Positions 1 through 8,268 of a stretch of DNA of 38,269 bases are shown here, piece after piece. The number at the start of each line of letters is the position of its first letter. The stretch's first letter is position 1. Below the pieces are notes generated by a model. It was not told where the DNA came from and searched no databases. It saw nothing but the letters and a program-made list of their open reading frames with translations. The position numbers were made by a program, and so were the translations under genes. This DNA is from a virus, in the IMG/VR virus record IMGVR_UViG_3300027734_000151, positions 1-38,269 of that record. One strand, written 5' to 3'.

Positions 1-90
1 GACAGATTGTCAGGTGACAGATTGTCAGGTGACAGATTGTCAGGTGACAGATTGTCAGGTGACAGATTGTCAGGTGACAGATTGTCAGGT
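1..90. repeat. 15-bp tandem repeat array of TGACA-N3-TGTCA palindromes
   Basis: Six perfect head-to-tail copies of GACAGATTGTCAGGT. Read as protein-binding sites, each period contains the dyad TGACA-gat-TGTCA, and dyads are separated by two G. After the last copy the motif degenerates to TGACC. The window's final bases (38253-38269) fall in the same repeat, so the array spans the contig junction and its true copy number is unknown. Possible roles are replication iterons, an operator cluster or a packaging/terminal site; the sequence does not decide between them. Confidence 0.95.
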
Positions 91-506
91 GACCTTTCGG
101 CGTTTTGGGTCACGCCCATATACCTATGCGTTGCGCGCATAGCAGCCAGGCCTCTGGCGCATAGGTCGCCGGGCACATGCGCCTCCCGTGCCCTTGGGGC
201 TTTGGGTCATTTCGGCGGTTTAGTCACGGGAAAAAACTTGAGGCGCCGCTTCGTGCGCCGGTCGGTGCGGTATCAGGATACCTATATTTTCCTTCCCCAG
301 AATATATAGAGAATAATAGACACTATAGCCGAAACCCGCGTTGGCGCGTTTGGGTGTCGACCATAGCCGAAACCATAGCCGTGTGCGGCGCCGTGATATG
401 CGCCGCACGCATACCAGGGTTGCAAAAATAGCATTACTCAATTTCAAAAACCCTGCTACATTAAATCCAACAGCGCACGGGGCGCTGGCAACCAGAGGAC
501 TAGACC
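91..506. other. non-coding leader/control region
   Basis: About 415 bases without a supportable gene. It holds inverted repeats: CTATGCG (124-130) with CGCATAG (136-142), a second CGCATAGG at 158-165 that could pair with the same arm, GGTATC-ag-GATACC (269-282), and GTGCGGCGC (383-391) with GCGCCGCAC (400-408). An AT-rich stretch runs at about 283-330. The string 'atagccgaaacc' occurs twice at about 325-376, followed by a third partial copy. 'tttgggtca' occurs twice (near 104 and 203). The region ends in promoter P1. With the repeat array it is a candidate origin or control region. Confidence 0.6.
409..462 (+). promoter_or_regulatory. promoter P1 with upstream dyad
   Basis: An imperfect dyad GCATACCAGGGTTGC (409-423) is followed after 10 nt by a -35-like TTACTC (434-439), a 17-nt spacer and -10 TACATT (457-462) preceded by TGC (extended -10). 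It lies 45 nt before the first gene. The geometry is identical to P2, P3 and P4, which is the main support. Confidence 0.7.
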
Positions 507-701
507 ATGGCAAACATCTGGGAAAACACTTACAGCGGCAACACCGCGCACTACTACGCAACGCGCAAGCGCAAGGCTGTGATCATCGGTGTGAACAGCG
601 ATATCACCTTTGCTAACCGCATCGCCGAAATCGAAGTGTCCGGCAAAATTGAAGCGCGCAAGGTCGCGGCGCAATACAACGCCAAGCCTTGGAATTTCTG
701 A
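507..701 (+). CDS. small hypothetical protein (64 aa), first early gene
   Basis: I do not recognise the family. The protein is basic and has no obvious membrane segment. The start is set by the repeated block 'accagaggactagaccATG', with AGAGGA as Shine-Dalgarno seven nucleotides from ATG. It is the first gene downstream of promoter P1 and of the repeat array. Its TGA stop is followed at once by the first of the eight intergenic hairpins (703-742). Position and size suggest an early host-takeover gene, which is inference only. Confidence 0.75.
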   Translation: MANIWENTYSGNTAHYYATRKRKAVIIGVNSDITFANRIAEIEVSGKIEARKVAAQYNAKPWNF

Positions 702-702
702 C

Positions 703-742
703 GGACTACCGTGCGGCGCCGCAAGGCGCCGCACCATAGTTT
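703..742 (+). other. intergenic hairpin H1 (GCAA loop)
   Basis: The inner stem GTGCGGCGCC (711-720) pairs perfectly with GGCGCCGCAC (725-734) across a GCAA (GNRA-type) tetraloop. A CC/CA internal loop separates it from an outer stem ACTA/TAGT, extendable by G-U pairs. It begins directly after a TGA stop and has no U-tract, so it is not a typical intrinsic terminator. First of eight related elements. Confidence 0.85.
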
Positions 743-773
743 GCCAGTACCACCACAACCAGAGGACTAGACC

Positions 774-857
774 ATGAAACGCTCACAAATTATCGGACGC
801 TATGCCGCCATTGCTGGCGCCGCCATCTTGCTCACTGTTCTGATTGCGGGGCTTTGA
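774..857 (+). CDS. membrane microprotein (27 aa)
   Basis: A tiny gene supported by the strong shared start block (accagaggactagaccATG). The protein has a short basic N-terminus (MKRSQIIGR) and then one hydrophobic span (AAIAGAAILLTVLIAGL) that runs to the C-terminus, so it should be a single-span inner-membrane microprotein, N-terminus probably in the cytoplasm. Its stop is two bases before the next start (860). Function unknown; phage proteins of this kind can be holin-like, superinfection-exclusion or host-modulating, but nothing here decides. Confidence 0.6.
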   Translation: MKRSQIIGRYAAIAGAAILLTVLIAGL

Positions 858-859
858 CC

Positions 860-982
860 ATGACCCGTATACAGCGATACCACCGCAACCATGACCGCCT
901 CGCCATTGCAGCCGCCACCATTGCAACCATCGCCATGGCGGCGTTCGACGGCGCCGTAGCCTACGCATGGTGGCTGTCATGA
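860..982 (+). CDS. membrane microprotein (40 aa)
   Basis: An Arg/His-rich N-terminus (MTRIQRYHRNHDR) is followed by an Ala-rich hydrophobic span of about 25 residues ending in YAWWLS, consistent with one membrane helix. It lies between two coupled genes: the start is two bases after the previous stop and the end overlaps the next start as ATGA (979-982). It has no separate strong ribosome site, so translation probably depends on coupling. No family recognised. Confidence 0.55.
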   Translation: MTRIQRYHRNHDRLAIAAATIATIAMAAFDGAVAYAWWLS

Positions 983-1125
983 CTGTAAACTATGACGGGT
1001 TTCTCATTCGCAAACATGGCCGCGAATATGGCGTTTATGATTGGGACTATGAAAGCGAGGCCCTTGTATTTGTGGCGCCGTCTATTAGCGCCGCAAGGGC
1101 TTGGATCGACCGGCGCAACGCCTGA
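979..1125 (+). CDS. small hypothetical protein (48 aa)
   Basis: Starts in a four-base ATGA overlap with the preceding microprotein gene and ends just before hairpin H2. The protein is soluble-looking and rich in aromatic and acidic residues (YGVYDWDYES), with a C-terminal segment SISAARAWIDRRNA likely to be helical. The pattern of a stained beta-rich start and helical end is common in tiny phage proteins, but I recognise no family. Existence rests on coupling, the stop-hairpin junction shared with neighbours and normal amino-acid composition. Confidence 0.6.
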   Translation: MTVNYDGFLIRKHGREYGVYDWDYESEALVFVAPSISAARAWIDRRNA

Positions 1126-1126
1126 C

Positions 1127-1166
1127 GGTCTACCGTGCGGCCGCGCAAGCGGCCGCACCATAGACC
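1127..1166 (+). other. intergenic hairpin H2 (GCAA loop)
   Basis: Outer stem GGTCTA (1127-1132) with TAGACC (1161-1166); CC/CA internal loop; perfect inner stem GTGCGGCCGC (1135-1144) with GCGGCCGCAC (1149-1158); GCAA tetraloop. Compared with H1, the inner stem is rearranged on both arms so that pairing is kept. Confidence 0.88.
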
Positions 1167-1184
1167 ACCAGCCATGCGCCGCGC

Positions 1185-1238
1185 GCATACCAGGTATGCA
1201 ATCTTTGCGTTACTCATTCGCACCAACACTGCTACATT
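1185..1238 (+). promoter_or_regulatory. promoter P2 with perfect 15-bp operator
   Basis: The operator GCATACC-A-GGTATGC (1185-1199) is a perfect inverted repeat. Ten bases later come TTACTC (1210-1215), a 17-nt spacer and TACATT (1233-1238) with an extended TGC. ATG of the next gene is 30 nt downstream of the -10 element. This is the best-conserved of four copies. Confidence 0.75.
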
Positions 1239-1267
1239 AAATCCAACACCAACCAGAGGACTAGACC

Positions 1268-1501
1268 ATGACATACGATATCGAGATGACGGACACCTTC
1301 GGAGGCGAGGCAAACTATTGCTGGGTAAAGCGCGACGAAATAGACGCGCCTGATACCCTGTCACGCCTCGCCTTAGTGCGCCGTGCCAAGGGCCTGATGG
1401 GCCTTAACGGCGTGCGGTGCCGCACATACGACCATGGCGACATGATTGAGATACGCCCATACGGCGCCTGTATCGTGGTGTTTATTCAGCACCGCTATTG
1501 A
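1268..1501 (+). CDS. conserved small phage protein (77 aa), function unknown
   Basis: The N-terminus (MTYDIEMTDTFGGEANYCWV) resembles, from memory, a widespread family of small phage proteins with a TDTFGGEANY motif; no function is known to me. The protein looks mixed alpha/beta and has a hydrophobic C-terminal strand (ACIVVFIQHRY). The start is fixed by the shared ribosome block, and promoter P2 lies directly upstream, so it is probably the first gene of its own transcript. Hairpin H3 follows the stop without a gap. Confidence 0.8.
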   Translation: MTYDIEMTDTFGGEANYCWVKRDEIDAPDTLSRLALVRRAKGLMGLNGVRCRTYDHGDMIEIRPYGACIVVFIQHRY

Positions 1502-1502
1502 C

Positions 1503-1544
1503 GGTCTACCGTGCGGCGCTCTAGCGGGCGCCGCACCATAGACC
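1503..1544 (+). other. intergenic hairpin H3
   Basis: Outer stem GGTCTA (1503-1508)/TAGACC (1539-1544), CC/CA internal loop, inner stem GTGCGGCGC (1511-1519)/GCGCCGCAC (1528-1536) and an eight-base loop. Identical over 42 bases to H7 (3379-3420). Confidence 0.88.
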
Positions 1545-1576
1545 GCCAGCGTGCGGCACAACCAGAGGACTAGACC

Positions 1577-1849
1577 ATGAAAATAGAAACTATTTCAGAT
1601 TTCCGCCGTGCAATGCTTGTCGGACCGTATGCTTGGCCGGGTGGGTACCCCACATACTTCTACACCGCTGACGGCGCCGTTCTGTCTTTTGACGCCGCGC
1701 GCCTTGAGCGCCGCAATATCCTAGAGGCCATTGCCAGCAATGACGCGCGTAGTGGTTGGCGTATCGCTGGCATGGATATTAACTATGACGATACTGAAAT
1801 GGTATGCGACCATACGGGCGTACCTATCCCGTCAGCCTATGAAGCCTGA
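1577..1849 (+). CDS. conserved small phage protein (90 aa), function unknown
   Basis: Contains GPYAWPGGYPTYFYTADGAVLSF near the N-terminus and SGWRIAGMDINYDD...CDHTGVPIPSAYE near the C-terminus. I remember this arrangement (proline-rich GPYAWPGGYP start, C-terminal CxH-x-G) from hypothetical proteins in many unrelated phages; its function is unknown to me. Only one C-x-x-H pair is visible here, so a complete zinc site is not evident. The start is set by the shared ribosome block, and hairpin H4 follows immediately. Confidence 0.85.
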   Translation: MKIETISDFRRAMLVGPYAWPGGYPTYFYTADGAVLSFDAARLERRNILEAIASNDARSGWRIAGMDINYDDTEMVCDHTGVPIPSAYEA

Positions 1850-1850
1850 C

Positions 1851-1891
1851 GGTCTACCGTGGCGGGCGCCAAACGCCCGCCACCATAGACC
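1851..1891 (+). other. intergenic hairpin H4
   Basis: Outer GGTCTA/TAGACC, CC/CA internal loop, inner stem GTGGCGGGCG (1859-1868)/CGCCCGCCAC (1874-1883), loop CCAAA. Identical to H8 (4277-4317). The inner stem differs from H1-H3 at several paired positions with matching changes on both arms. Confidence 0.88.
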
Positions 1892-1916
1892 GCCAGAGTC
1901 CAGGCCCGCGCGTAGC

Positions 1917-1970
1917 GCATGGCTGGTATGCAAAAATAACGTTACACAATATCCTACACGCCTGTAAGAT
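1917..1970 (+). promoter_or_regulatory. promoter P3 with upstream dyad
   Basis: The dyad GCATGGCTGGTATGC (1917-1931) is the exact reverse complement of the P4 dyad. Ten bases later come TTACAC (1942-1947), a 17-nt spacer and TAAGAT (1965-1970). The next ATG is 31 nt downstream. Confidence 0.68.
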
Positions 1971-2000
1971 AGGCGCGCCAACCAACCAGAGGACTAGACC

Positions 2001-2258
2001 ATGGGCAAGTATCTGATAATCCGCACGGACACCAAAATAGTAAAGGGATGCGCGCGGCACACGGACCGGGTTATGAAGCGCCTGCATATGCCAGACGTAG
2101 ACGATAGTGTTGTGGGTTCCTACATGCGGCAATTCGACGATATCGTAATGACGGCGCGCGGCTATTGTCGCGTTGAACGGCGCGGGTTCTACATTACCAT
2201 AGTAGACGCCAAGGGGCAGAATATCTGGGGATGCGACGTCGAAGGCACGCATTACTGA
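2001..2258 (+). CDS. hypothetical protein (85 aa)
   Basis: Not recognised. The protein has a strand-like start (MGKYLIIRTDTKIVKG), a central helical segment (HTDRVMKRLHM) and a C-terminal beta-rich part (RGFYITIVDAKGQNIWG). The start is fixed by the shared ribosome block and promoter P3 lies directly upstream. Unlike its neighbours it is not followed by the GGTCTA hairpin. Instead its TGA stop forms the first bases of a pair of TGACA-N3-TGTCA dyads (2256-2283), the same half-sites as the terminal repeat array. Confidence 0.75.
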   Translation: MGKYLIIRTDTKIVKGCARHTDRVMKRLHMPDVDDSVVGSYMRQFDDIVMTARGYCRVERRGFYITIVDAKGQNIWGCDVEGTHY

Positions 2259-2283
2259 CAAACTGTCAACTGACAAACTGTCA
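2256..2283. promoter_or_regulatory. two TGACA-N3-TGTCA dyads, 15-bp spacing
   Basis: TGACA-aac-TGTCA (2256-2268) and the same again (2271-2283), separated by two bases. Half-sites and the 15-bp period match the array at 1-90, but the central triplet is aac instead of gat and the linker differs. It overlaps a stop codon and lies just upstream of promoter P4. Confidence 0.85.
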
Positions 2284-2305
2284 GAGGTCCAGGCATGCGT
2301 TTTAC

Positions 2306-2359
2306 GCATACCAGCCATGCAATAATACGTCTGGTGCGAGTGTCGGAAAGTGCTATACT
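2306..2359 (+). promoter_or_regulatory. promoter P4 with upstream dyad
   Basis: The dyad GCATACCAGCCATGC (2306-2320) is followed after 10 nt by a weak -35 region (CTGGTG, 2331-2336), a 17-nt spacer and a near-consensus extended -10, TGC-TATACT (2354-2359). The -10 element is the strongest of the set and the -35 the weakest. ATG is 46 nt downstream of the -10. Confidence 0.7.
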
Positions 2360-2404
2360 TTATCTAACAGCGCAAGAAAGCGCCGCCAATCAGGAGACTA
2401 GACC

Positions 2405-2602
2405 ATGGCAGACATTCACGTTCTACGGCACACAAATGGCGGCCGCCATTTTGTCGTCAAGGTAGTGACAGAAGAAATCTCGCATCAGGTAGACAAGCGG
2501 CTATTGTCGTTAATCGTCGCGGGCGCGCAAACGCAAGGCTTGACGGTTTATTGCGATACCTACCAGCGTTATTTGGCAGGGTCCGTAGACCAGATGCGTT
2601 GA
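2405..2602 (+). CDS. small hypothetical protein (65 aa), paralogue of the next gene
   Basis: Preceded by a variant of the shared ribosome block (caggagactagaccATG). The protein aligns by eye with the product of 2664-2858: both start M-x-DI, carry NG followed by F-x-V, then a L-[IV]-VAGA core, VY, an R-Y-L-x-G motif and a final D. This suggests a tandem duplication with strong divergence. No family or function recognised. Promoter P4 lies directly upstream and hairpin H5 follows. Confidence 0.75.
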   Translation: MADIHVLRHTNGGRHFVVKVVTEEISHQVDKRLLSLIVAGAQTQGLTVYCDTYQRYLAGSVDQMR

Positions 2603-2604
2603 CA

Positions 2605-2643
2605 GACTACCGTCCGGCGCCCGCGCGGCGCCGGACCATAGTC
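2605..2643 (+). other. intergenic hairpin H5, compensatory variant
   Basis: Outer stem GACTA (2605-2609)/TAGTC (2639-2643) replaces GGTCTA/TAGACC. The inner stem GTCCGGCGCC (2612-2621) pairs with GGCGCCGGAC (2627-2636). CC/CA internal loop kept. Both stems changed on both arms, which argues that structure is selected. Confidence 0.88.
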
Positions 2644-2663
2644 CGGCAACCGGAGAAACTACC

Positions 2664-2858
2664 ATGCCTGACATTACCATAGCCCGTGCTTCAAACGGCG
2701 TTGACTTCATTGTAGAGCGTGACGGCGCCGTTAGTATTGTGCCCCCTGCTATCATGACGCTTGTCGTGGCGGGCGCCAGCGCAAGCCGTCTTAGCGTGTA
2801 TGACGCAACCGGCGCCCGTTACCTGACCGGTACCCTTGACGAATTGCTTAACGGCTAG
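2664..2858 (+). CDS. small hypothetical protein (64 aa), paralogue of the previous gene
   Basis: Shares M-x-DI, NG-x-x-F-[VI]-V, LVVAGA, VYD and RYL-x-G-x-x-D with the 65-residue protein just upstream, so the two are tandem paralogues. Its ribosome site departs from the neighbours (ccggagaaactaccATG), with GGAG rather than AGAGGA. The stop codon TAG leads directly into the divergent hairpin H6. Function unknown. Confidence 0.75.
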   Translation: MPDITIARASNGVDFIVERDGAVSIVPPAIMTLVVAGASASRLSVYDATGARYLTGTLDELLNG

Positions 2859-2911
2859 GGCCTATCGTGCGGGCGCCACGGCGCCCGCATTATGGCCCTG
2901 GTATCTTTTTT
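2858..2911 (+). terminator. hairpin H6 plus T-tract, candidate terminator
   Basis: Outer stem GGGCC (2858-2862)/GGCCC (2894-2898), internal mismatch, inner stem GTGCGGGCGC (2867-2876)/GCGCCCGCAT (2881-2890). Six T follow at 2906-2911, seven bases after the stem. It is the only member of the hairpin family with a T-run, so intrinsic termination is plausible here. Confidence 0.65.
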
Positions 2912-2957
2912 CTAACGCTGGCATTATGCCAACACCAACCAACCAGAGGACTAGACC

Positions 2958-3377
2958 ATGACATGCTATCGTGAGTTTCCAGACTTTCCGGCCGCCGATA
3001 TGCCCGCCCTTCCAGAGGGCTGGATTGACACTAGTTACCACAATGACGCTTGCCCTTGTTACACCAGCCCTGACGGCGTAGTCATATGGATTGACTACGT
3101 AGACCCGGCGCAACGGGAGTTTCCCGGCCAAGCGCGCTTTGCGGTCACCTATCTAGACGCTGATGGCTGTCATCTGGTTGACGACACAACGCTAGACTTC
3201 GACACCTTCCAAGCGGCGCTAGATCACGCCGCCATGGGTAACACCAGCACCGAACGCCTGCTAGAGGCTATCCATGAAAGCGAGTTTAATTTCTGGGTAC
3301 GCGACTACGGCGAGGCGCACGCGCAAGCTATGGCTGACGCCGCTGTAGCGCGTGAAAAGGCCAAGCGCAACGCCTGA
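2958..3377 (+). CDS. hypothetical protein (139 aa)
   Basis: One of the larger early-arm proteins and acidic overall. The N-terminal half looks beta-rich with a compact aromatic segment (MPALPEGWIDTSYHNDACPCY, then TSPDGVVIWIDYVDP), which resembles small single-domain proteins that form one sheet. The C-terminal half is predicted helical (FQAALDHAA..., AQAMADAAVAREKAK). No family recognised. The start is set by the shared block accagaggactagaccATG. H7 follows the TGA stop. Confidence 0.78.
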   Translation: MTCYREFPDFPAADMPALPEGWIDTSYHNDACPCYTSPDGVVIWIDYVDPAQREFPGQARFAVTYLDADGCHLVDDTTLDFDTFQAALDHAAMGNTSTERLLEAIHESEFNFWVRDYGEAHAQAMADAAVAREKAKRNA

Positions 3378-3378
3378 C

Positions 3379-3420
3379 GGTCTACCGTGCGGCGCTCTAG
3401 CGGGCGCCGCACCATAGACC
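3379..3420 (+). other. intergenic hairpin H7 (identical to H3)
   Basis: Same 42 bases as H3: GGTCTA/TAGACC outer stem, CC/CA internal loop, GTGCGGCGC/GCGCCGCAC inner stem. A 17-base palindrome CCCTTGTC-T-GACAAGGG (3429-3445) follows nine bases later and may form a second hairpin or a protein site. Confidence 0.88.
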
Positions 3421-3428
3421 GCCTATAA

Positions 3429-3445
3429 CCCTTGTCTGACAAGGG
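3429..3445. repeat. perfect palindrome CCCTTGTC-T-GACAAGGG
   Basis: Eight-base arms around one base. It contains TGTC and GACA half-sites in the opposite relative arrangement to the dyad arrays. Either an RNA hairpin or an operator; no T-tract follows. Confidence 0.7.
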
Positions 3446-3485
3446 CCAGGCCCTTCCATGCCTAAACCAACCAGAGGACTAGACC

Positions 3486-3824
3486 ATGACCGCATCAGAC
3501 TTGTTTGCCGCTCATTTTGTTGAGGCGGCGCTATTTGCCGATACGCCAGAAGAATATGAGGGCGAGGGCTTGTCAGAGGAATCCGACGCCCGCTTGCGCG
3601 CCTTTGCAACGGCGTTCTACGCCGCCCATCAAGATGACATAGACGCCTATTGCGAGGGCGTAGACGGCGCCGCACATGACCTCTGGTACACCCTGCTAGA
3701 CCATGGTTGCGGCTACTGGGAGCAAGACGACGACATATCCAAGCGCCTTGACGCCGCCGCTAAGGCGTTGGCAACCGTTTGCGGCCTATATGAAGGCGAC
3801 GATGGCCTATTGCATTGGGCCTAA
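3486..3824 (+). CDS. hypothetical acidic protein (112 aa)
   Basis: Strongly acidic and mainly helical by appearance (ESDARLRAFATAFYAAHQDDIDAYCEG). It is rich in Asp/Glu with several aromatic residues (HDLWYTLLDHGCGYWEQDDD). Acidic phage early proteins can mimic DNA or bind host enzymes, but no specific anti-restriction motif is visible. Start fixed by the shared ribosome block. The gene ends TAA, and a short AACT/AGTT inverted repeat and a TTGACA box follow. Confidence 0.75.
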   Translation: MTASDLFAAHFVEAALFADTPEEYEGEGLSEESDARLRAFATAFYAAHQDDIDAYCEGVDGAAHDLWYTLLDHGCGYWEQDDDISKRLDAAAKALATVCGLYEGDDGLLHWA

Positions 3825-3838
3825 CTGTTACTTTTTAG

Positions 3839-3868
3839 TTGACACTACCAGCCAAGCGCGGACAAAAT
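3839..3868 (+). promoter_or_regulatory. possible promoter (TTGACA box)
   Basis: A consensus -35 TTGACA (3839-3844) is followed after 17-18 nt by a poor -10 (acaaaat). No operator dyad like those of P1-P4. Low confidence. Confidence 0.3.
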
Positions 3869-3897
3869 GACCGCACCAACCACGGGAGACTAGGACC

Positions 3898-4275
3898 ATG
3901 ACCACGTACAACGGATGGACTAACTACGCCACATGGCGCGTTAACCTTGAAATTTTCGACGGTACCAGCGCCTCTGACCATATCGGGACCGGCGGACGTG
4001 ACCGCCTCACCTTGCTTATGGACACCTTGCGCGACACGGCGGAGGACCTGGTTTCCGAAACGGAAAACAGCCTCGCACGCGACTACGCGCTTGCGTTCAT
4101 GGAAGAGGTGAATTACCGCGAAATCGCCGAACATATGTTGGAGGATGAAGAGGAAGAGGAAGAGGAAGAGGAAGAGGAAGAGGAAGAGGAAGAAGGCACC
4201 ACGCTGGCGGACCCGCCCGCATCTATCGAGATTGAATGTTCGCCGTTTATAAAGGCGGCGCTAGGCGATAATTGA
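3898..4275 (+). CDS. WTNYATW-motif protein with poly-glutamate tract (125 aa)
   Basis: The N-terminus NGWTNYATWRVNLEIFDG matches a small-protein motif (W-T-N-x-x-T-W) that I know from many phages and plasmids; its role is unknown to me. A helical segment follows (RLTLLMDTLRDTAEDLVSE). Residues from about 84 contain about 16 consecutive Glu, encoded by alternating gaa/gag codons, a hexanucleotide tandem repeat at 4147-4194. The C-terminus after the tract (ADPPASIEIECSPFIKAALGD) is ordinary. The ribosome block is a variant (cgggagactaggaccATG). The Glu tract could vary in length by slippage. Confidence 0.8.
   Translation: MTTYNGWTNYATWRVNLEIFDGTSASDHIGTGGRDRLTLLMDTLRDTAEDLVSETENSLARDYALAFMEEVNYREIAEHMLEDEEEEEEEEEEEEEEEEGTTLADPPASIEIECSPFIKAALGDN
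4147..4194 (+). repeat. GAAGAG hexanucleotide repeat (poly-Glu coding)
   Basis: An uninterrupted purine tract of alternating gaa and gag codons inside the 125-aa protein gene. Alternating codons reduce a pure trinucleotide repeat but leave a six-base unit open to slippage by multiples of six, which keeps the frame. Confidence 0.9.
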
Positions 4276-4276
4276 C

Positions 4277-4317
4277 GGTCTACCGTGGCGGGCGCCAAAC
4301 GCCCGCCACCATAGACC
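4277..4317 (+). other. intergenic hairpin H8 (identical to H4)
   Basis: Same 41 bases as H4: GGTCTA/TAGACC outer stem, CC/CA internal loop, GTGGCGGGCG/CGCCCGCCAC inner stem, loop CCAAA. The next start block lies about 16 bases downstream. Confidence 0.88.
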
Positions 4318-4349
4318 GCCATGGGGCGGCACAACCAGAGGACTAGACC

Positions 4350-4745
4350 ATGCGAATTAATCTTAAAGACACGGACGCCGTGCGCGCGGCGCTTGCCGCC
4401 GTAAACGGCAGAGCGGAACGCCATGCCTATACTCTACCGTCCGAAATTGCGGCGGTAGCTTATGACGCCGAACGGGCGCTGGCGCGCTTGAACCTGTCTA
4501 AAAGCGCGCGGCGCGGCGCACGCTATGTGTCGCAATCCAGCGGCAATCTGCCCAAAGCCTACAAGTATAATGCTATCGGCACCGTCGTCACGTTAGAGCG
4601 GGGCGCAACGGCCTGGTTTATGGTGAACGTCGCGGCGTGTGATATCCGCCCCGGCGCGGCACCCTTCCAGCGGCTCACGTTGACGCCAGATCAGGACGCC
4701 GCCGCCGTGGCAGCGTTGCGTAAAGCCTATGGGGTGGCAGCATGA
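4350..4745 (+). CDS. hypothetical basic protein (131 aa)
   Basis: Starts at the last of the strong shared ribosome blocks (accagaggactagaccATG). The protein has an Ala-rich helical N-terminus, then a basic central segment (LNLSKSARRGARYVSQSSGNLPKAYKY) and a strand-rich region (IGTVVTLERGATAWFMVNVAACD). This could bind nucleic acid, but no known fold is evident. It is the first gene of a coupled run of five: its stop overlaps the next start as ATGA (4742-4745). Confidence 0.75.
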   Translation: MRINLKDTDAVRAALAAVNGRAERHAYTLPSEIAAVAYDAERALARLNLSKSARRGARYVSQSSGNLPKAYKYNAIGTVVTLERGATAWFMVNVAACDIRPGAAPFQRLTLTPDQDAAAVAALRKAYGVAA

Positions 4746-4876
4746 TTTACATTCCGCCGCCGCCGCGCCAGCGCACTAGCCTATGGCTGGCTCTGGCTGA
4801 ATTTACCACCCTTGTCGCCCTATGGGGCAGCATTATCGCGCTTGCCGTATTGGCCCGCGCTATCATGGGAGTGTAG
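4742..4876 (+). CDS. membrane microprotein (44 aa)
   Basis: Begins MIYIPPPPRQR, a short proline-rich basic head, then a hydrophobic stretch of about 28 residues (LWLALAEFTTLVALWGSIIALAVL) ending ARAIMGV. This fits one membrane span. Translation is coupled to the previous gene (ATGA overlap), and the next gene starts four bases after its stop. No family recognised. Confidence 0.6.
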   Translation: MIYIPPPPRQRTSLWLALAEFTTLVALWGSIIALAVLARAIMGV

Positions 4877-4880
4877 GACC

Positions 4881-5060
4881 ATGGTCTTCTACGAAATCGA
4901 CGATTGCAACGGGCCTATAGATGCCGCGCCGCGCTTTAGCAGTGTAGAAGCCGCTATTGCGCTGGCACGAAGCTATGCTAACGACGGACGTCAGGGCGTA
5001 TGCATCTATAGGGTCGAGACAATATGGACAGCCGAACCGGAGGCAGACGACAATGACTGA
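4881..5060 (+). CDS. small hypothetical protein (59 aa)
   Basis: I choose the ATG at 4881, preceded by gggagtgtaggacc, rather than an upstream start inside the membrane gene. The protein is acidic and alpha/beta: FYEIDDCNG, then a helix (SSVEAAIALARSYAND), then GVCIYRVETIW and an acidic tail. This order resembles short regulatory or pyocin-like single domains, but nothing specific. The end overlaps the next start (5053-5060). Confidence 0.7.
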   Translation: MVFYEIDDCNGPIDAAPRFSSVEAAIALARSYANDGRQGVCIYRVETIWTAEPEADDND

Positions 5061-5313
5061 ATTTACCTTCTTTGCCCACATAGCAGGGCTGGAAATACAG
5101 GTCGACTGTCTTGTGGCGGACCCCGGTATGAAGCCCCGTTATGGGGAAGACCCCGACCCCGGCCATGATCTGGAAATACAGATCGAGCGGACAAGCTATA
5201 ACGGCGAGGATGTGTCGTTTGACGGCTTGTTCATGAAGGTGCCTTGGCACTATGTGCCGATCGATGACTGGTTGCTGGAACAGGCACACGAATTTTATGC
5301 GAGGGGCATATGA
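5053..5313 (+). CDS. hypothetical protein (86 aa)
   Basis: The ATG at 5053 lies inside the end of the previous gene and is preceded by ccggaggcagacgaca, a good ribosome site (GGAGG). The protein (MTEFTFFAHIAGLEIQVDCLV...) alternates strands and ends in a helix (DDWLLEQAHEFYARGI). It is acidic with several His residues. No family recognised. It overlaps the last microprotein gene by ATGA (5310-5313). Confidence 0.7.
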   Translation: MTEFTFFAHIAGLEIQVDCLVADPGMKPRYGEDPDPGHDLEIQIERTSYNGEDVSFDGLFMKVPWHYVPIDDWLLEQAHEFYARGI

Positions 5314-5378
5314 TCCATTTCCTACTGGTGATACTGGCGGCGTTTATTGCGGGGCTGCTTTTGCATGACGCCGATTGA
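5310..5378 (+). CDS. membrane microprotein (22 aa)
   Basis: The sequence is essentially one hydrophobic helix (IHFLLVILAAFIAGLLL) with a short polar tail (HDAD). It is the last gene of the plus-strand early arm and is coupled by an ATGA overlap. At this size confidence rests on coupling, its membrane-like composition and the three similar microproteins upstream. Confidence 0.5.
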   Translation: MIHFLLVILAAFIAGLLLHDAD

Positions 5379-5470
5379 TACCCACAACCGGGTGTGCGCG
5401 CTGGCACCGTGTGGTAAGGTCCAGAGATTAGTCCGGCGGGCAGGGTTCTAGTCCCCTGCCATCGCGTGTA

Positions 5471-5501
5471 GGGGGCAGCGCAAGCGCCGGATGCTGCCCC
5501 C
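5471..5501. terminator. bidirectional terminator hairpin
   Basis: GGGGGCAGC (5471-5479) pairs perfectly with GCTGCCCCC (5493-5501). It sits between converging genes, so a bidirectional transcription stop is likely, although there is no clear U-run on either strand. The same nine-base stem recurs at 28991-29012. Confidence 0.6.
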
Positions 5502-5506
5502 ACCTC

Positions 5507-5562
5507 CCATCTGCCAAGGGGCGCACGCGCACCATGGCCCAGCGGCGTTCCTTGGCGGATGG
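5507..5562. repeat. 13-bp inverted repeat
   Basis: CCATCTGCCAAGG (5507-5519) and CCTTGGCGGATGG (5550-5562) are complementary apart from one position. The 30-base interior is GC-rich. It lies against the stop codon of the minus-strand holin gene and may end that transcript. Confidence 0.65.
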
Positions 5563-5563
5563 A

Positions 5564-5965
5564 TTACTTTGCGGCTACGCCGCGCACCTTTTCAAACGTC
5601 CTAAGCCCACCAAGGCCTAACATGCCCGTGAGGACGGTCATCAGCGTGCCCATGTCAAATGGGATCACGATGGGGTCATGCCCGAACAGGACCGCCAACC
5701 AGCCTAGTAGGGGCAGGATCACGAAATGGAGCGCGAACGCCGCGCCGCAGATCCAGCCAATGCCAGGACGCCAGCCAGCGACAAACACGCTGCTACTGGC
5801 GGCTTCAATCTTGTTTATGTCGATCTGTTGCTGGACGCCTGCTATCGCGGCGTCCATCTGCGCCTTGACTAGCTGCGCCTCTGCGCTGGCGCGGGCGGCA
5901 GGATCAGGCCAGATCCGGCTTATCAGGGTTTCAGCCAGACCGGCTACTGCGCTTACAGGGTCCAT
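5564..5965 (-). CDS. GTA-type 3TM holin
   Basis: Predicted to form lesions in the inner membrane that let endolysin reach the wall. It matches the gene-transfer-agent holin family (3TM holin): a helical N-terminus (AGLAETLISRIWPDPAARASAEAQLVKAQMDAA), then WRPGIGWICGAAFALHFVILPLLGWLAVLF and a final GTLMTVLTGMLGLGGLRTFEKVRGV. Its 133 residues are usual for the family. The start overlaps the primase-helicase stop as TAATG. Oddly it sits at the end of the replication operon, about 10 kb from the endolysin. Confidence 0.88.
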   Translation of the reverse strand: MDPVSAVAGLAETLISRIWPDPAARASAEAQLVKAQMDAAIAGVQQQIDINKIEAASSSVFVAGWRPGIGWICGAAFALHFVILPLLGWLAVLFGHDPIVIPFDMGTLMTVLTGMLGLGGLRTFEKVRGVAAK

Positions 5966-8268
5966 TATCCAGATCCTTTCACAACGCTAAGGGTGGGCGG
6001 CGCTGGTGGCTCGACCATGCGCCGCAGATCCGATTTACTCATACGGGCCATGTCGGGCGCAACAAACAAGTGCTTCTTTGTCGGCAGTTCCCCAGACGAC
6101 ACGCGCCCCAGATCCTTCCAGCCCGCCTCTTTCAGCGCATGGAACAAGTTATTCGGGCCGATAAACGTCCCGGCGGGCGCAAGCGCCGCCAGACGCGAAC
6201 AGACGGCGTGCCACGGGCCGCCTACTACGCCCTTGGCGAACTCGCCCCGGCGCGTCTCCATCAACTCCAATAGATACCCTTCTGCTGCGCTCATGCTGCT
6301 CTCCACTAGGTTGCGCTTCCAGTCCGTGACCGGCGGCGCGGCGGCAGGGTTAAACGCCGACACGTCGCGGGCGTATAGCCAAGCCGCGCACGCCTCGAAC
6401 CCGCCCGCCTTGTACCAAGACCAGAGTCGAACCGACCCCTCGGCGGACAGGCGCGCGGCGGTTGACCAGACGGCAAACCAGCGCCGGTCCTGTGACGGCA
6501 GGGTAAGGGGGACGTAGTCGTTGGTGAACGCCAGCACCAGCAGCCGGTTGACCAGGTCATAGGGCGCGCGGTTCTTGCGATTGATCGAGATCACGTCAGG
6601 CGGCGCGGCGATGATAGGCTTGAGTTTGTTTGCCAAGGCTCGACGGGCGCTCGCGTCCGTCTCCCGCAGTTCGTTGAGGACGACGACCTCGGACTGGTAA
6701 TGGTAGTCAAAGTCACTGTCGAGTTTCTTACCGTCCACCAGACCGTAGTTTTTGAGATCGGGTCCACATACTGCCCAGATAAAGGGGGCATATAATGTGT
6801 CCTTCCCGATACCCTCGTCGCCTCCGTGTAAGATAGCATGGTTCACCTTCACCTTGGGGTTCTGTACTTTGAAGGCCAGCACATCCAGCACATGCTCCCG
6901 CTCGATTGCCTCCGGTATCAGAGCCTCGACATGCTCCAGCCACGGCGACACGTCACCCGCCGCACCCACTACCGCCGGCCTGGCGTTCAGCCATGTGTTG
7001 CCGTAGACGTCGCCCGATCGGTAGACCAGCGCCGTCTCGCCGGGGGCGTAGGTTAGCCCTTGCAGGGTGCGCCCGCCGCCGCTCTGGCGGTTCTCGTCAA
7101 AGGCTACGGACGCCTCGATGTTGCGCCCAGTCCTGATCGATTTGCAGGCTATGTGCCGGAACTGCGCGTCAAAGTTAGGGCGCGTAAGATCCCGGCGCGT
7201 CTCCAGATCGAAGTAGCCGTTGTCTGCCATGATGTAGGCAAAGCGTTCGTACCATGCCGCCCGCTCGATCCGGCCCATCTCGGCCCGGTCTACCTCGGCC
7301 ACCCGCGCGGCGGCGGCGTCGGGAAACTCGTCGGTAGGCGTCAGGCGCTCCCGCACTTTCGCCATGCGCTCGGCCAGCAGTTCGTTCCGCAGCCCGTGCT
7401 GGACCCGTGGCCCGCCCTGTTCGAACACCCAGTCAAGGAACGCCGTGCTGTTCAGGTCTTCACAATGCCCATGGTAGCAGCAGAACGAACGGTCGAGCGG
7501 GCGGTACCTGGCTTCGATCTGCCCGTCCGTGTGCGCCGCATTGTTAGGGCAGACCACGCCGCACCAGCCCTCGGCGTTGGTGCGTGACAGCACCAGCCCA
7601 TGCTCGTTCAGCCATTGCAGGACGGTGTCGGCGCCCGTGTCGGCAAGACGCAGCGCCTTGTGGCTGGCGGTGTCGGCCTCGTCAGGCGTGACGCCCAGCG
7701 CCTCGCATATCTCGGGCAGGGTGTATTCCCGGTCAGGGTGGAACTCGACCAACCGGCTGGCAAACCTATCACGGCCCGGCTTCAGATTGATGGACCCCGG
7801 TATGCGGAAGTTGCGGACGGCGTTGGTAGCGCCGGGGTCGGTGTAGCCCGCCGCCGCTATGGCTTTGATGGCGGCGGTGTAGTCGCCCGTGGATGGTTGG
7901 GCGCTGAAAGCGTAGCCCCACTGGAAGCTGCCGGGGCTTGTCTCCATCACCCATGTCGGCGGCAGGGGCGGCGTGTTCGGTGCCTTCTCAGTCCCCACGT
8001 CGTCCAGCATCATGCACAGAACGAAGGCAGCATTGGCGCTACTGGCGGACGGCTTGCCGTCGCGGAATCTGTCCAACATGAAGCAGCCGGTGTTCAGGTA
8101 CCACGCGCCGTCTGTCTTGCGCCCCGGCAGATAGGCGGGCCAGGTATAAGCCAGCGTGCCGTCTCCGTGCGTCTTCTGGACGCCGTCACGCATGATTGCC
8201 TTTTGCTGGACCAGCAGCGCCGTCTCGCCCTCGGGTGCCAGACTGGTGATGTACTCGACAAAATTCAT
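5965..8268 (-). CDS. primase-helicase (primase-like N-terminus, zinc site, SF3-type ATPase)
   Basis: Likely primes and unwinds phage DNA. Residues about 50-190 resemble the archaeo-eukaryotic primase/RepB-type fold (MMLDDVG near 88, SPGSFQWGY near 111, VRNFRIPGSINLK near 151). A Cys/His cluster at about 236-270 (CGVVCPNNAAH, FCCYHGHC) should bind zinc. The helicase half has Walker A GGDEGIGKDT (about 482-491), Walker B VVVLNEL (about 529-535), sensor AFTND and QDRRW (about 592). It is like the DUF5906/NrS-1 group. I choose the ATG at 8268, overlapping the polymerase stop as ATGA; a longer frame upstream lies within the polymerase gene. Confidence 0.88.
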   Translation of the reverse strand: MNFVEYITSLAPEGETALLVQQKAIMRDGVQKTHGDGTLAYTWPAYLPGRKTDGAWYLNTGCFMLDRFRDGKPSASSANAAFVLCMMLDDVGTEKAPNTPPLPPTWVMETSPGSFQWGYAFSAQPSTGDYTAAIKAIAAAGYTDPGATNAVRNFRIPGSINLKPGRDRFASRLVEFHPDREYTLPEICEALGVTPDEADTASHKALRLADTGADTVLQWLNEHGLVLSRTNAEGWCGVVCPNNAAHTDGQIEARYRPLDRSFCCYHGHCEDLNSTAFLDWVFEQGGPRVQHGLRNELLAERMAKVRERLTPTDEFPDAAAARVAEVDRAEMGRIERAAWYERFAYIMADNGYFDLETRRDLTRPNFDAQFRHIACKSIRTGRNIEASVAFDENRQSGGGRTLQGLTYAPGETALVYRSGDVYGNTWLNARPAVVGAAGDVSPWLEHVEALIPEAIEREHVLDVLAFKVQNPKVKVNHAILHGGDEGIGKDTLYAPFIWAVCGPDLKNYGLVDGKKLDSDFDYHYQSEVVVLNELRETDASARRALANKLKPIIAAPPDVISINRKNRAPYDLVNRLLVLAFTNDYVPLTLPSQDRRWFAVWSTAARLSAEGSVRLWSWYKAGGFEACAAWLYARDVSAFNPAAAPPVTDWKRNLVESSMSAAEGYLLELMETRRGEFAKGVVGGPWHAVCSRLAALAPAGTFIGPNNLFHALKEAGWKDLGRVSSGELPTKKHLFVAPDMARMSKSDLRRMVEPPAPPTLSVVKGSG

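Follow-up and report, generated by a model that had tools for sequence, protein, structure and literature searches.

Covarying RNA hairpins at the ends of tiny early genes in an uncultured P22-like podovirus and its relatives

How does a phage express a long row of tiny genes from shared transcripts? The question is raised by the early region of IMG/VR virus record IMGVR_UViG_3300027734_000151. The window analysed here is the entire record (38,269 bp), and its virion genes are P22-like (portal, coat and Hc3 closure protein). An initial annotation had described eight intergenic hairpins among the early genes, and proposed that they form a selected RNA element whose pairing is kept over its sequence. 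Our analysis supports this view: the hairpins are a selected RNA element located at gene ends, and the element is apparently undescribed. We consider it real because the same element, with different yet matching letters, recurs across many related viruses.

All eight hairpins were found on the plus strand, about 1–5 nt from the positions first given for them, after which the copies are named here. Their minimum free energy (MFE, in kcal/mol) ranges from −32.5 to −40.1 with z scores of −5.9 to −8.9, and none of 200 shuffles was as stable. A covariance model of the family finds exactly eight members in the 38,269-bp record, its best matches all being early and on the plus strand. The hairpins are listed below, together with the matches of a second model, which describes a sister family of hairpins and was trained on 25 sequences, none of them from the window phage.

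698..747, plus strand: hairpin 1 (703 copy), ends the 507-701 gene (UGA at 699-701); GCAA loop; next start at 774; MFE −33.1, z −7.1; matched by the covariance model.
1122..1171, plus strand: hairpin 2 (1127 copy), ends the 979-1125 gene; GCAA loop; followed by a promoter-like repeat; MFE −35.6, z −8.9; matched by the sister-family model too.
1498..1549, plus strand: hairpin 3 (1503 copy), ends the 1268-1501 gene; next start at 1577; same core as hairpin 7; MFE −35.8, z −7.2; sister-family model E 7e-7.
1846..1896, plus strand: hairpin 4 (1851 copy), ends the 1577-1849 gene; followed by a promoter-like repeat; same core as hairpin 8; MFE −36.6, z −7.9; matched by the sister-family model.
2598..2651, plus strand: hairpin 5 (2605 copy), ends the 2405-2602 gene; next start at 2664; outer stem GACTA/TAGTC, base GUUG/CAAC; MFE −32.5, z −6.0; matched by the covariance model.
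2854..2902, plus strand: hairpin 6 (2858 copy), ends the 2664-2858 gene, with its UAG stop within the stem; lacks the CC/CA loop; followed by TCTTTTTTC; MFE −40.1, z −6.7; matched by the covariance model.
3374..3425, plus strand: hairpin 7 (3379 copy), ends the 2958-3377 gene; next start at 3486; MFE −34.8, z −5.9; matched by the sister-family model.
4272..4323, plus strand: hairpin 8 (4277 copy), ends the 3898-4275 gene; next start at 4350; MFE −34.8, z −7.8; matched by the sister-family model.

The 1503 and 3379 copies are identical over 49 nt, as are the 1851 and 4277 copies. The eight copies thus represent six distinct sequences, and recent copying accounts for part of the repetition. The common plan proposed for the hairpins is largely confirmed. 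All have an outer stem, a GC-rich inner stem (10–11 bp) and a small terminal loop (4–5 nt in the window copies), which is GCAA in the 703 and 1127 copies, as had been reported. The 2 × 2 internal loop CC/CA is present in seven of the eight copies, but not in the 2858 copy.

Among the relatives, an initial loose pattern scan gave mostly chance matches. A descriptor limited to two stems and the internal loop succeeded where free-energy scans of about 230 relatives were too noisy. It identified the sister family, UGAC-NNN-CUA-A / CA-UAG-NNN-GCCA, in the related contigs L128, L210, L218, L304 and L306; the search with the sister-family pattern matched 38 contigs, about 36 of which contain true hairpins. 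Overall, about 40 IMG/VR contigs carry the element. Contig L123 is almost the same phage as the window virus. Seven copies of a separate version (outer AGTCTA or GGTCTA) are present in L059 and a diverged set in L084, while L474, L500 and L501 join the window-type outer GGTCTA stem with the sister loop. A third version, which keeps the CUGAC/GCCAG base, is found in L294 and L225, and TAG-linked hairpins of a different build in L168, L263 and L270. The sister phages also carry a second kind of gene-end hairpin, CGCAAGTCTAAGC ... GCTTATGCG, in which AGTC bulges out on one side and the inner stems can replace one another; its carriers are L128 (10676 and 11437, minus strand), L210, L218, L475, L483, L497, L502, L505 and L507. 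Positions 1-6500 of the window gave no DNA match to named phages and only 1% matches to plasmids, and the protein of the 3898-4275 gene had no tblastn match in named phages or plasmids. The nearest portal proteins (72–73% identical) belong to DSL-LC05 and MW202483, in which the two-stem scan found no comparable hairpin set.

The hairpins had been described as starting next to a stop codon. They do lie at gene ends, but the helix reaches further than first described, and in most copies the stop codon is actually within its base. This base has the form N-U-G-A-C / G-C-C-A-N', in which the U and G of the UGA are paired and the A lies opposite a C; it is followed by three variable pairs, CUA/UAG and the small internal loop. 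Past the outer stem, the base is weak or partial in the 3379 and 4277 copies. Other stop codons have other partners: the UAG of the 2858 copy is paired with CUG, and the UAA of a copy in L059 with UUA. In the 52 elements of both families, the outermost pair (the base before UGA with N') matches in 36 cases versus 26.9 expected (permutation p 0.00045, uncorrected for relatedness). The duplex extends over about two turns, with the internal loop between its lower and upper stems, and the inner stem typically starts 8–10 nt past the stop codon. This distance is close to that of the leading edge of a terminating ribosome, so the inner stem could stay folded as the ribosome unwinds the outer one.

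Covariation in the related phages is well above that of slid and shuffled controls. Double changes affect 10 of 17 pairs in the window family (34 cells, versus at most eight in slid controls). In the sister family they occur in 10 of 20 pairs (70 cells, versus at most 10); there the letters named by the search pattern are invariant by construction, and the signal comes from the free outer triplet, the inner stem and the outermost pair. None of 500 shuffles reached the observed covariation in either family. The sister-family model matches the window copies starting at 1498, 1846, 1122, 4272 and 3374 on the sense strand, with E values of 7e-7 to 6e-4 (rough calibration), and also L334, L294 and a second L474 copy. 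Read on the sense strand, the pair cells include 43 G.U and seven A.C combinations, 23 of the G.U being contributed by one conserved sister pair. Because G.U far exceed A.C, RNA of the coding strand is favoured as the selected molecule.

It is very improbable that the elements act instead at the DNA level, as a protein-bound palindrome, an origin or a packaging signal, or that they derive from a host repeat. They are palindromic DNA, and the inverted repeats of cluster K mycobacteriophages have been explained in this way (PMC3203893), but the orientation here is always sense and at gene ends, and neither the G.U excess nor the conserved asymmetric mismatches fit such a site. A host origin is opposed by the search of 84,980 bacterial and archaeal genomes, which gave two pattern matches; the one inspected was a chance match within a gene and formed no stem. 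Mobile repeats with unrelated placement, which the initial annotation had named as an alternative, do not agree with a placement fixed on stop codons in a single orientation.

The constant feature of all copies is their contact with the upstream stop, the distance to the next start being variable. A gene that recurs in several phages usually brings its hairpin with it, often in front of a different downstream gene, and the inner stem at the same gene is sometimes swapped for another fully paired version. Such arrangements recall recombination linkers, in which short conserved stretches at gene ends and starts would serve the shuffling of small gene cassettes between phages, the pairing being incidental or kept by copying; the identical 49-nt copies behind unrelated genes and the repeated start sequences would also be expected of them. 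Linkers, however, do not explain the compensated pair changes, the retained mismatches or the strand asymmetry; template switching during palindrome repair should in fact remove the mismatches that persist. We regard this explanation as improbable.

The elements are located between genes whose co-transcription must be frequent. In 51 of 52 cases a co-directional start codon lies downstream, mostly 22–31 nt away. After the 703, 1503, 2605, 3379 and 4277 copies comes a gene, and no promoter was found in the interval; the 1127 and 1851 copies are followed by a promoter-like repeat and the 2858 copy by a T-tract. The latter is the only T-tract among the eight window copies, as first reported, and a run of four or more T follows none of the 52 pattern-set elements of the two families. 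Rho-independent termination or attenuation is thus a most improbable function. T-tracts do follow the 2858 copy and one L084 copy (7144-7190), just 5' of promoter-like sequence, but five of the window copies separate genes between which no promoter was found. The attenuator suggested earlier also lacks an alternative pairing common to all elements: the linker (GGGGCGCGTCAAC type) pairs with the 5' arm of the hairpin above chance in only 13 of 47 elements. This linker pairing, sometimes perfect and including the stop codon, is seen in L128, L218, L473, L505 and L507 and is not general. Pairing of GGTCTA with TAGACC within the start sequence extends over 6 bp at 1503, 3379 and 4277; it was rejected as a switch since it is absent at 703 and 2605.

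The paired stop codon, with its UAA and UAG versions matched on the opposite strand, and an inner stem usually 8–10 nt past the stop with the next start close by, might suggest a translation-linked insulator. The terminating ribosome would open the outer stem and the element would refold behind it, so that neither read-on nor re-initiation occurs and each start site is isolated. We regard such a role as quite unlikely: the 1127 and 1851 copies precede promoter-like repeats and are not near starts, and the embedded stop may merely reflect the movement of gene and hairpin as a unit.

Comparison with known systems was made to place the element. In bacterial selenocysteine insertion sequences (SECIS), a UGA is also found at the base of a hairpin. 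SECIS-like stop readthrough was rejected because the frame is not kept: the window-family hairpins of 42–46 nt break it, in the sister family it closes 10 codons past the UGA, and there is no conserved readthrough product. No Rfam family matched at the gathering threshold; the weak microRNA-like matches were dismissed as generic hairpin likeness. No description of the element was found in searches of the open-access literature. The start-associated sequences (SAS) and extended SAS (ESAS) of the cluster K mycobacteriophages TM4 and Adephagia resemble it in that, among rows of small genes, many starts carry a conserved short sequence with inverted repeats nearby (PMC3203893). However, ESAS precede starts, the way they differ from one another gives no support for pairing as RNA (PMC3203893), and putative promoters lie within them (PMC11373665); the window-type hairpins sit on stops and covary strongly. 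We therefore regard the element as an apparently undescribed form of a known kind, the intercistronic phage mRNA hairpin. It also resembles intercistronic 3'-stabilizing stem-loops of the repetitive extragenic palindromic (REP) type, stable gene-end structures in operons that probably protect the upstream message (PMC10667835), from which it differs in being a family common to many phages, with a fixed internal loop and a stop codon in the helix.

The closest likeness is to the T7 hairpins R0.3, R0.5, R1, R1.1 and R1.3, which are two-part hairpins between early genes, with an outer stem, an internal loop, an inner stem of at least 9–10 bp and a tight loop. When folded, the T7 early intergenic regions, which we take to be RNase III sites, adopt this two-part architecture too; in R0.5 the helix begins on the gene 0.4 stop codon, a UGA that is paired in the outer stem. 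R1.1 is an RNase III site (PMC6121014, PMC8708148) with an asymmetric internal loop of 4/5 nt (PMC6121014). The T7 stems are AU-richer, whereas the elements described here have a GC-rich stem and a 2 × 2 CC/CA or 1 × 2 A/CA loop, and their cleavage is an extrapolation.

By analogy with T7, we propose that the hairpin is a cistron-end element, which would be cut by a double-strand-specific RNase, shield the mRNA 3' end, or both; we rate this as the most likely explanation and give it an even chance. Processing and 3'-end stabilization were among the functions suggested in the initial annotation. Each copy in the early polycistronic mRNA would fold into a helix of about 20–23 layers: the base with the stop codon, the outer stem, the fixed small internal loop, the GC-rich inner stem and the tight loop. 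The upstream message would be the target, through an RNase III-type cut, a block to 3'-to-5' exonucleases, or both, and every tiny gene would obtain a stable, separately tunable message. The internal loop may be a recognition feature or a hinge. In E. coli, an intercistronic stem-loop of −25 kcal/mol increased upstream gene expression if it was followed by a cleavage site (PMC10667835).

Several observations weigh against this proposal. The early genes ending at 2258 and 3824 have no hairpin. The T7 sites have neither this internal loop nor a fixed stop-codon base. No RNase III gene was found among the window proteins tested, so the enzyme would have to be that of the host; some RNase III enzymes may cleave GC-rich stems poorly, and one from an alphaproteobacterium requires a longer duplex than its E. 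coli counterpart (PMC6121014). In addition, an invariant CA strand in the internal loop would be superfluous for a plain 3' stabilizer and hints at a specific binder. The element could accordingly be recognized by an RNA-binding protein, of phage or host origin, that reads the CA strand and the constant CUA/UAG flanks and coordinates the early genes post-transcriptionally. Both the window family and the freely found sister copies keep these letters despite variable stems, and copies are alike within one genome and unlike between genomes. We consider this explanation unlikely, as there is no candidate binder among the proteins tested, L084 and other lineages have different loops, and in the large sister set the loop and flank letters are fixed by the search pattern. 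Cleavage or protection at the cistron end might also depend on how frequently the gene is translated, in a gate whose outer stem opens at termination and closes after ribosome release. In this rather unlikely but possible form of the cistron-end proposal, UGA, UAA and UAG may be deliberately paired, each with a matched partner, and the internal loop may be read by a phage-specific protein.

The genes of the early row and the sequence associated with their starts are as follows.

507-701, 774-857, 860-982, 979-1125, 1268-1501, 1577-1849 and 2001-2258, plus strand: tiny early genes, first part.
2405-2602, 2664-2858, 2958-3377, 3486-3824, 3898-4275, 4350-4745 and 4742-4876, plus strand: tiny early genes, second part.
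490..509, plus strand: first of eight exact copies of the start-associated AACCAGAGGACTAGACC-ATG (ATG at 507, 774, 1268, 1577, 2001, 2958, 3486 and 4350), with variants before 2405 and 2664.

A Pfam test of ten of the early-gene proteins gave only weak, sub-threshold matches. The sequence AACCAGAGGACTAGACC-ATG, absent from the initial annotation, is present at almost all early gene starts, and its conservation reaches far past the ribosome-binding site; the corresponding sequences of L059 and L084 are versions particular to them (GGAGACTAGACC). Four early genes are preceded by the promoter-like repeat GCATACCAGG..TGCAAAAATAGCATTAC...TGCTACATTAAAT (398-472, 1174-1248, 1898-1975 and 2287-2366). 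There are six tandem copies of GACAGATTGTCAGGT at positions 1-90 and diverged dyads at 2257-2284, after the hairpin-less 2001-2258 gene; long arrays of the same repeat are found in L059, and these repeats are possible repressor or origin sites. A GAG/GAA repeat (4140-4196) encodes a long poly-glutamate run in the protein of the 3898-4275 gene, which has a weak DUF7249 match. A long hairpin of 57 nt (5507-5563, −40.8 kcal/mol), perhaps a two-way terminator, separates the rightward early genes from the replication genes, which run leftward.

The hairpins constitute a covarying RNA family without an Rfam entry that is widespread in a large uncultured group of P22-like podoviruses. They offer a testable answer to the question of how rows of tiny early genes are expressed from shared transcripts. 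As the element marks gene ends and not starts, it provides a strong handle for locating where small phage genes truly end in metagenomic sequences, and its natural combinations of stop codon and hairpin could be used as parts to tune genes in synthetic operons.

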